Shown here: positions 44,719 through 46,666 of the stretch, in pieces
Numbering within the stretch: position 1 is the stretch's first letter
How the letters are laid out: every line of letters starts with the position of its first letter
Assembly: GCA_015057555.1 (NCBI GenBank)
Contig: SVEC01000009.1
Location: forward strand, 35,528-99,527
DNA from: Lachnospiraceae bacterium
GTDB lineage: Bacteria; Bacillota; Clostridia; Lachnospirales; Lachnospiraceae
DNA: 64,000 bases
Reading direction: 5' to 3'
Notes under the pieces: model-generated
Seen by the model: the letters and a program-made list of their open reading frames with translations, nothing else
The model's database searches: none
Told to the model about the DNA's origin: nothing
Made by a program: the position numbers and the translations under genes

Positions 44719-45903
44719 ATGTCAAAGGGAAGATACGGTATTCATGGTGGACAGTACATACCTGAGTCACTTATGAATGAGGTTAATAAATTAGAGAAAG
44801 CATATGAGCATTATAAGAATGATCCTGACTTTATTAGAGAGTTAGACCAGCTTTCAAGAGAGTATGCAGGTAGACCATCACTTCTTTACTATGCAGAGAA
44901 GATGACTAAGGATTTAGGTGGAGCAAAGATTTACTTTAAGAGGGAAGACTTGAATCACACAGGCTCACACAAAATTAACAATGTACTTGGTCAGGCTCTT
45001 CTTGCTAAGAAGATGGGTAAGACTAGAATTATCGCTGAGACAGGTGCTGGACAGCATGGTGTGGCAACAGCTACAGCAGCTGCACTGCTTGGACTTGAGT
45101 GTGAGATATACATGGGTAAGGAGGATACCATCCGTCAGGCACTTAATGTGTACCGTATGGAGCTCCTCGGTGCTAAGGTTCATCCTGTTGAGTCAGGAAC
45201 TATGACTTTAAAGGATGCAGTAAATGAGTGTATGGGCGAGTGGGCCAGAAGAACTGAGGATACACTTTATGTGCTTGGCTCAGTTATGGGACCACATCCA
45301 TTTCCTATGATAGTAAGAGATTTCCAGAGTGTTATAAGCCGTGAGGCCAGAGCCCAGATACTTGAGAAGGAAGGAAAGCTTCCTGATGTGGTTATGGCAT
45401 GTGTAGGTGGCGGAAGTAATGCTATGGGAATGTTCTATGAATTTATAAAGGATGATGGCGTTAAGCTTATCGGCTGTGAGGCAGCAGGTAAGGGAATCGA
45501 CACCAACGAGACTGCTGCTACAGTTAACACAGGCTCACTTGGAATCTTTCACGGTATGAAGTCATATTTTTGCCAGGATGATTACGGACAGATTGCTCCT
45601 GTGTATTCTATATCAGCAGGACTTGATTATCCGGGAGTTGGTCCGGAGCATGCAAATCTTCACGATACAGGAAGAGCAGAGTATGTACCAGTTACAGATG
45701 ATGAAGCAGTTGATGCATTTGAATACATAGCAAGAACTGAGGGAATTATAGCTGCTATAGAGAGCTCACACGCAGTGGCTCATCTTATGAAAATCGCTCC
45801 AACCATGAGCAAGGATCAGATTATTATCTGTTGTCTGTCAGGTCGTGGTGATAAGGATGTTGCAGCAATAGCAAGATATAGAGGAGTGGATTTACATGAG
45901 TAG
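44719..45903 (+). CDS. trpB: Tryptophan synthase beta subunit (canonical)
   Basis: The 394-residue protein has all standard TrpB motifs: KREDLNHTGSHKINNVLGQALLAKKMG with PLP Lys85, IIAETGAGQHG with Glu107, EDTIRQALNVYRMELLGA, CVGGGSNAMGMF and GLDYPGVGPEHA. It joins indole and serine. Its end overlaps trpA by 8 bp, so the pair is coupled, as in ordinary trp operons, but no trpEGDCF genes are upstream and no T-box or leader peptide is visible in the 210-bp leader. It is more canonical than the copy at 7851. Confidence 0.95.
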   Translation: MSKGRYGIHGGQYIPESLMNEVNKLEKAYEHYKNDPDFIRELDQLSREYAGRPSLLYYAEKMTKDLGGAKIYFKREDLNHTGSHKINNVLGQALLAKKMGKTRIIAETGAGQHGVATATAAALLGLECEIYMGKEDTIRQALNVYRMELLGAKVHPVESGTMTLKDAVNECMGEWARRTEDTLYVLGSVMGPHPFPMIVRDFQSVISREARAQILEKEGKLPDVVMACVGGGSNAMGMFYEFIKDDGVKLIGCEAAGKGIDTNETAATVNTGSLGIFHGMKSYFCQDDYGQIAPVYSISAGLDYPGVGPEHANLHDTGRAEYVPVTDDEAVDAFEYIARTEGIIAAIESSHAVAHLMKIAPTMSKDQIIICCLSGRGDKDVAAIARYRGVDLHE

Positions 45904-46666
45904 AGTTAAGGAAGCATTAATCGGTAAGAAATCATTTATCGGATTCCTCACAGCAGGAGATCCGTCCATTGATAAAACAGAGGATTTTATAGTTGAAATT
46001 GCAAATGCAGGTGCAGCCATAGTTGAGATTGGTATTCCATTCTCAGATCCTATCGCTGAGGGACCTGTAGTGCAGGAGGCAAATGTTAGAGCACTTTCAG
46101 CACCTGGTGGATGTACCACTGATATGGTGTTTGACATGGTGGGAAGAGCCAGCAAGAGAGTGAATGTACCGCTTGTACTCCTCACATATCTTAATCCGGT
46201 TTATAAGTATGGATATGAGAGATTCTGTGCAAAATGTAAGGAGACAGGTGTTGATGGAATTATTATCCCGGATCTTTCCTATGAGGAGAAGGGTGAGCTT
46301 TTAGCAGAGGCCAATAAATATGACATCGACATTATATCCCTGATTTCAACAAACAGTGGTGATAGAATAAATATGATAGCACCAGAGGCTACAGGATACA
46401 TTTACATCCTTCCTTCAGAGGATAATGTGGCAGAGGGCGAATTAAGCGGAAAGCTTCTTGAGACAGTGGGTCGTATCAGAAAGCTTACTGACACACCAGT
46501 TGTTATTGAGTTTGGAGTAAATACACCGGAGCAGATTGCAAGATATAGCGATATTGCAGATGGTATTATTATAGAGACACGTATCGTAAAGCTTATTGAG
46601 AAGTACGGTGCTGATGCAGGAAAGTACATTTACGATTACGTTAAGAAAATGGTAGATAGCATTTAG
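45896..46666 (+). CDS. trpA: Tryptophan synthase alpha subunit, divergent at catalytic and phosphate-binding sites
   Basis: The 256-residue length, GDPSIDKTEDFI, VEIGIPFSDP with catalytic Glu44 (equivalent of Glu49 of the Salmonella enzyme), VPLVLLTYLNP and IIIPDLSYEE define TrpA. The second catalytic acid is Glu55 (AEG) instead of the usual Asp (ADG). The GVTG phosphate loop is replaced by D-N-V-A-E-G (176-181), the GFG motif by EFG (205-207), and the GS phosphate site by E227-T228. TrpA cleaves indole-glycerol phosphate and activates TrpB. Here the cleavage step may be weakened; an allosteric role could remain. Confidence 0.9.
   Translation: MSRVKEALIGKKSFIGFLTAGDPSIDKTEDFIVEIANAGAAIVEIGIPFSDPIAEGPVVQEANVRALSAPGGCTTDMVFDMVGRASKRVNVPLVLLTYLNPVYKYGYERFCAKCKETGVDGIIIPDLSYEEKGELLAEANKYDIDIISLISTNSGDRINMIAPEATGYIYILPSEDNVAEGELSGKLLETVGRIRKLTDTPVVIEFGVNTPEQIARYSDIADGIIIETRIVKLIEKYGADAGKYIYDYVKKMVDSI

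Follow-up and report, generated by a model that had tools for sequence, protein, structure and literature searches.

Tryptophan synthase is a textbook allosteric enzyme pair, and the locus described here raises the question of why a bacterium should keep the α subunit (TrpA) when the residues that bind the phosphate of its substrate, indole-glycerol phosphate (IGP), have been replaced. The locus lies in a stretch of 64,000 nucleotides from a Lachnospiraceae bacterium, hereafter the window. Judging from sequence, its TrpA has lost the phosphate-binding residues, no pathway source of IGP was found, and the protein is probably kept only to hold and switch on the β subunit (TrpB); tryptophan would then be formed by TrpB from serine and indole taken up from outside.

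Gene Identity and Locus Organization

The trpB gene (44719..45903, + strand) encodes an intact β subunit of 394 aa that matches TIGR00263 with 644.8 bits (cut-off 392.45), and its 3′ end overlaps the 5′ end of trpA (45896..46666, + strand) by 8 nt. The latter is an intact open reading frame of 256 aa whose product, predicted to be an activator-only α subunit, has the TIM-barrel fold of TrpA and scores above the curated family cut-off of TIGR00262 (212.9 bits, cut-off 102.35) as well as that of PF00290 (225.2 bits, cut-off 27). Fourteen nucleotides after trpA begins asnS (46680..48071, + strand), followed by asnA (48114..49124, + strand); the order trpB-trpA-asnS-asnA recurs in all five clade loci that are sufficiently long (L009 starts at trpA).

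Two tandem DUF4230 genes (43201-44505) precede trpB. The pair is found in the same order in four of six clade loci (L006, L007, L008, L010) at 67-86% identity, which is below that of the neighbouring genes. Elsewhere in the window, a cobalamin riboswitch (RF00174, 86.4 bits) was located at 15486-15698.

Catalytic and Phosphate-Binding Residues

In the reference numbering of Salmonella TrpA, the phosphate site consists of the GVTG motif of loop 6 (columns 181-184), GFG (columns 211-213) and Gly-Ser (columns 234-235). The replacements listed in an earlier sequence-only reading of this DNA are all present in the alignment: loop 6 carries D-N-V-A-E-G (residues 176-181, 46421..46438, + strand), of which D-N-V-A occupies the GVTG columns and is followed by a one-residue gap; GFG has become EFG (residues 205-207, 46508..46516, + strand); and Gly234-Ser235 is replaced by Glu227-Thr228 (46574..46579, + strand), which starts a predicted helix (227-240). 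Seven of the nine diagnostic residues are thus lost and two are kept. By comparison, each of 50 intact TrpAs from TrpC-bearing genomes keeps at least eight of the nine; columns 181-184, 211-213 and 234 are invariant among them, and column 235 is Ser in 49/50. Since eight columns do not vary in this set, the changes in the window are not noise, and the loss of the phosphate site that had been proposed is borne out.

The catalytic acids are both in place. Glu44 (46025..46027, + strand) corresponds to catalytic Glu49, and Glu55 (46058..46060, + strand) to Asp60; together with the equivalent of Tyr175, they are retained in the clade of the window. The claim that the general acid is altered does not hold up, as Glu is the norm at position 60 (44 of the 50 intact relatives) and the change is an ordinary one.

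A phosphate site formed by shifted residues, which had been named as the refuting alternative, left no sign in the alignment. Within the clade, 12 of the 15 loop-6 positions vary, whereas variation is seen at 0/8 positions of the segment that ends in EF (199-206) and at 1/12 of the one containing ET (219-230), with Glu205 and Glu227 fixed; nothing in this pattern therefore points to a relocated site. One clade sequence, P0007, departs from the other members over its N-terminal 45 residues or so; it lies on an 861-base contig and is probably an assembly chimera.

Absence of the Tryptophan Pathway

The genome of the window (G000, 87% complete) contains one TrpA as well as TrpB, and it gave no match to TrpC, TrpF or TrpE, which were the pathway genes searched genome-wide. 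TrpC was found in 24 of 37 genomes of the same genus. An intact-site TrpA occurs in 24 genus genomes, all of which were read, and 23 of these have TrpC; the exception (G006) is 71% complete and has TrpF. In all eight genus genomes with a lesioned TrpA, TrpC, TrpF and TrpE are absent, and four of the eight are 91-98% complete. The remaining five of the 37 have no clear TrpA.

Lesions of differing make-up were found in further relatives (L014, L016, L017 (= G030), L021 and L034), and in L100, L101 and L102 Glu49 is lost as well. TrpC exceeded the cut-off in none of 16 genomes with a lesioned or short TrpA (seven of the window's clade and nine others), where the counts from the order samples are among the matches listed and the sites were read at individually examined loci; L006-L011 and L017 coincide with genus genomes and were counted once. 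The nearest case is the genome of L014 (G435), where TrpC scored 20.4 bits, below the cut-off of 27. TrpF had no match in any of the 16, TrpE was absent in 13/13 lesioned genomes tested, and all three were missing together in the same 13/13, some of which are 97-98% complete.

The residue comparison comprised 15 lesioned TrpAs, 50 intact ones with TrpC, five intact ones without it and three unclear ones (L019, L052, L094), in whose genomes TrpC was unmatched and TrpF present, probably owing to genome gaps. Left out of the scoring were the short L035, the partial but intact L099, the remnant L107, as well as distantly related TrpA-like proteins from G057, G093, G095 and G315. Among the matches listed for the order samples, a genome without a TrpC match over the cut-off accompanies 15/15 lesioned versus 5/55 intact TrpAs. 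A Fisher test on 70 of the 73 rows, with the unclear ones excluded, gives p 2e-11 for 15/0 versus 5/50, kinship being ignored; with kinship corrected for, the pairs available were too few for a test to attain 0.05. When the site columns were excluded from tree building, about five changes were required to explain the lesion, three of them forced by well-supported branches. The eight nominal lineages are hence not all independent, and long branches in the tree call for caution (L100 with L102).

Five genomes have an intact TrpA despite an undetected TrpC (L093, L095, L096, L097, L098). Those of L095, L097 and L098 are 92-99% complete and the other two 75% and 84%; that of L097 contains a 22-residue TrpF-like stretch, just below the cut-off, adjoining trpBA. 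From these cases it follows that loss of the site trails loss of the pathway and is not immediate.

Distant TrpA-like proteins of a different subfamily, with altered catalytic surroundings, were also noted in genomes without a TrpC match among the matches listed: two each in G057 (L104 and L112) and G093 (L103 and L111), and one each in G095 (L105) and G315 (L106).

Short Forms and an Unlikely New Ligand

Two types of short TrpA, of 184-190 aa, were found (L035, at 189 aa, with P0124-P0126, and P0143). The phosphate-binding part has been excised in frame, as in L035, so that the whole phosphate site is gone and the C-terminal helix is kept. We tentatively suggest that loss of the pathway is repeatedly followed, in gut Clostridia, by reduction of TrpA to nothing but a switch for TrpB. 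At least two lineages, represented by these two types, would have excised barrel strands 6 to 8, and the resulting 184-190 aa form, in which loops 2, 3 and 4 still carry their TrpB-facing residues, might be a natural minimal allosteric activator.

The same forms bear on the suggestion, made in the earlier reading, that TrpA acts on a non-phosphorylated substrate. In its fuller version, a new substrate or ligand would be held by the acidic residues 205 and 227. Retention of the Glu49, Glu60 and Tyr175 equivalents in the clade is in line with it, as is the contrast between a variable loop 6 and nearly invariant EFG and ET segments in sequences of 83-98% identity. No positive evidence for such a substrate emerged, however, and lineages of the same kind have dispensed with Glu49: it is lost in four other lesioned TrpAs of pathway-less genomes (L014, L100, L101, L102), and the short forms do without the whole site. 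The common factor is therefore loss of a site rather than gain of a new one, and a new ligand appears unlikely.

Retained TrpB Contacts and Selection

Retention of TrpA as a partner of TrpB is the preferred reading, and the residues facing TrpB are largely in place. PFSDP (residues 48-52, equivalent to P53-P57; 46037..46051, + strand) forms the TrpB-facing loop L2 and is kept in all 15 lesioned TrpAs, as are A59, Y102, N104 and D130. Y102 and N104, like P132 and E135, are residues that we take to belong to the interface. Intact TrpA has 58 conserved columns; those of the phosphate site are lost on average in 5.8 of the eight nominal lineages and the remainder in 1.8 (permutation 2e-5). Excerpts of the structural literature describe contacts of α D130 with β Pro18 and of α D56 with β Asn171 (PMC5573416), contacts of loop L2 with TrpB, and, in Salmonella, a bond from the main chain of loop-6 Gly181 to TrpB Ser178 (both PMC6608616). 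Gly181 is changed in all eight nominal lineages, and Pro132 is Ser throughout the clade of the window, so that TrpA may pass on a weaker activating signal, or none. The proposal of an allosteric activator of TrpB thus remains the best reading of the sequence as regards most contact residues, with Gly181 and Pro132 speaking against it. The support that had been anticipated from an alignment, namely clade-wide loss of the phosphate site beside conserved interface residues, was obtained with the same two exceptions.

Within the clade, purifying selection acts on trpA much as it does on the intact gene: dN/dS is 0.028-0.094 in the clade (15 pairs, six loci) and 0.022-0.106 for intact trpA (15 of 16 pairs usable), with many dS values above 1. 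The inference of the earlier reading that an intact trpA is being maintained is thereby supported. These values weigh against a decaying pseudogene left after pathway loss, with TrpB alone under selection. Decay would agree with a loop 6 almost free to vary, with the dN/dS of 0.19 obtained when L016 is compared with the clade, and with G418, where TrpA is present as a 106-aa remnant only. The frame is nevertheless open in all seven clade genomes read, and the nine TrpB-facing residues persist in 15/15, which makes a pseudogene very improbable.

A TrpA that merely stabilises TrpB or closes the mouth of the tunnel, with TrpB activity not being raised, would account for a lost Gly181 contact in every nominal lineage while loops 2, 3 and 4 stay. 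Against it stands the impaired TrpA of Chlamydia trachomatis, which does raise TrpB activity according to an excerpt of PMC9378776, and we give this version equally little credence. That TrpA still cleaves IGP through a rebuilt site, with the missing genes in unsequenced parts of an 87% complete genome (as is probable for L019, L052 and L094, whose TrpF betrays the gap), is scarcely credible given the joint absence of TrpC, TrpF and TrpE from every lesioned genome tested, the most complete ones included.

Changes in the Partner TrpB

Ser17 of the window TrpB (44767..44769, + strand) lies two residues after the Pro (Pro18 equivalent) that contacts α Asp130. This position is Thr in 44/44 TrpBs of the intact set (first sample) and is changed in 12 of 15 TrpBs beside a lesioned or short TrpA, six of these 15 belonging to the clade of the window. 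The comparison of TrpB columns took in 70 loci, 10 without a usable TrpB start being dropped. Among 180 conserved columns, residue 17 gave the strongest signal, with changes in six nominal lineages against two for the next best column and 0/20,000 permutations. Thr17 is retained in L115 and L117, which have an intact TrpA and no TrpC. When 391 genomes across the class were searched for a changed residue 17, the search covering codons that do not start with A, the window and four new genomes came up. TrpA is intact in all four, and trpC adjoins in three; the change is consequently ruled out as a diagnostic of lesioned TrpA and is enriched only.

Residue 20 is often changed too, and it aligns with a position at which an engineered Pyrococcus furiosus TrpB (5vm5) has Gly in place of Glu; this variant reportedly works without TrpA. 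The residue set described for stand-alone TrpB in the available part of PMC11917138 excludes residues 17 and 20, and the available part of PMC8576815 has nothing on either.

A second trpB (TIGR00263, 524.5 bits) is located at 7836-9068 of the window with no trpA beside it, and a gene of the PF00209 sodium:neurotransmitter symporter family (9078-10517) follows directly. Second TrpBs of 520-545 bits were found in 7/13 lesioned genomes, including that of the window, versus 3/30 others (G027, G451, G452).

T-Box Leaders and Possible Operon Origin

Thirteen lesioned loci, four of them from the clade of the window, were scanned for T-box leaders. A T-box core with a TGG (Trp) specifier stands directly before trpB in six (L014, L016, L017, L034, L035, L118); two of these pass the Rfam T-box model at its own threshold (L016, 95.4 bits; L035, 97.2 bits), and the other four come from the motif scan alone. 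The same motif pair was found in 9/16 intact-TrpA loci scanned, eight times ahead of trpE and once, in L025, ahead of trpC at an odd spacing; the set holds 24 loci, and the eight beyond these 16 are without the pair. No such motif was found before trpBA in the two intact pathway-less loci L115 and L117, nor was a T-box found upstream of the trpBA operon of the window, where a promoter-like site at 44605-44634 is at no more than chance level. A T-box directly before trpB in pathway-less loci would fit removal of trpEGDCF from between the leader and trpBA.

The history of these loci may thus have begun with a leader-trpEGDCFBA operon that lost trpEGDCF. With no IGP to cleave, the IGP site would have drifted, first by point changes, then by loss of loop 6 and then by excision of the phosphate-binding part. 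Binding of TrpB would have remained under selection because TrpB presumably works poorly without TrpA. Indole could be supplied by neighbouring gut microbes, and TrpB would join it with serine to give tryptophan, TrpA being retained for binding and activation. Salvage of indole through TrpB by gut bacteria is reported for Bifidobacterium in an excerpt of PMC11085991.

Relation to Known Systems

The closest parallel is found in C. trachomatis, whose TrpA structure (PDB 6V82) is among the matches listed for the window TrpA; this protein is said to be the subject of a study by Michalska et al. (2021). As described in the accessible part of PMC9378776, the catalytically impaired chlamydial TrpA raises TrpB activity about four-fold, and the gene set consists of trpA, B, F and R without trpC. 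In both cases a TrpA without IGP lyase activity, here deduced from sequence, would stand beside an intact TrpB as an allosteric partner for indole salvage. The likeness lies in gene content and role. Whereas the chlamydial case concerns one pathogen lineage under trpR control, the present one spans several gut and rumen Clostridia lineages, with a T-box in some and forms down to 184-190 aa. The short forms resemble the truncated TrpA of ocular C. trachomatis in being shortened and adjoining trpB, but the latter is frameshifted and reported as nonfunctional (PMC6635532); in the forms described here, excision leaves the frame and the C-terminal helix intact.

Plant TSB-like pseudoenzymes offer a mirror case: a dead tryptophan synthase subunit again activates a living one, except that β activates α and the pseudoenzyme is a paralog beside an intact enzyme (PMC12727527, as excerpted). 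The ordinary TrpAs of complete trpEGDCFBA operons (L012, L013) share with that of the window the family, the fold, the place after trpB and most TrpB-facing residues; they differ in that the phosphate site is intact and the pathway present. The open-licence literature, among the matches listed, covers the Chlamydia and plant cases and has nothing on Lachnospiraceae TrpA. The principle itself has hence been described for one pathogen and, in mirror image, for plants (PMC12727527); as far as those matches go, what is new is that it recurs among Clostridia of gut and rumen, that it is linked with loss of the pathway, and that excised short forms occur.

As natural experiments, such lineages separate the catalysis of the α subunit from its activating role, ranging from point losses to the loss of loop 6 and strands 6-8, and they bear on how much of α is needed for the activation of β. 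The same lineages point to gut and rumen bacteria that probably rely on other microbes for their indole, even though both tryptophan synthase genes are present in their genomes and an annotation could credit them with making tryptophan from IGP.
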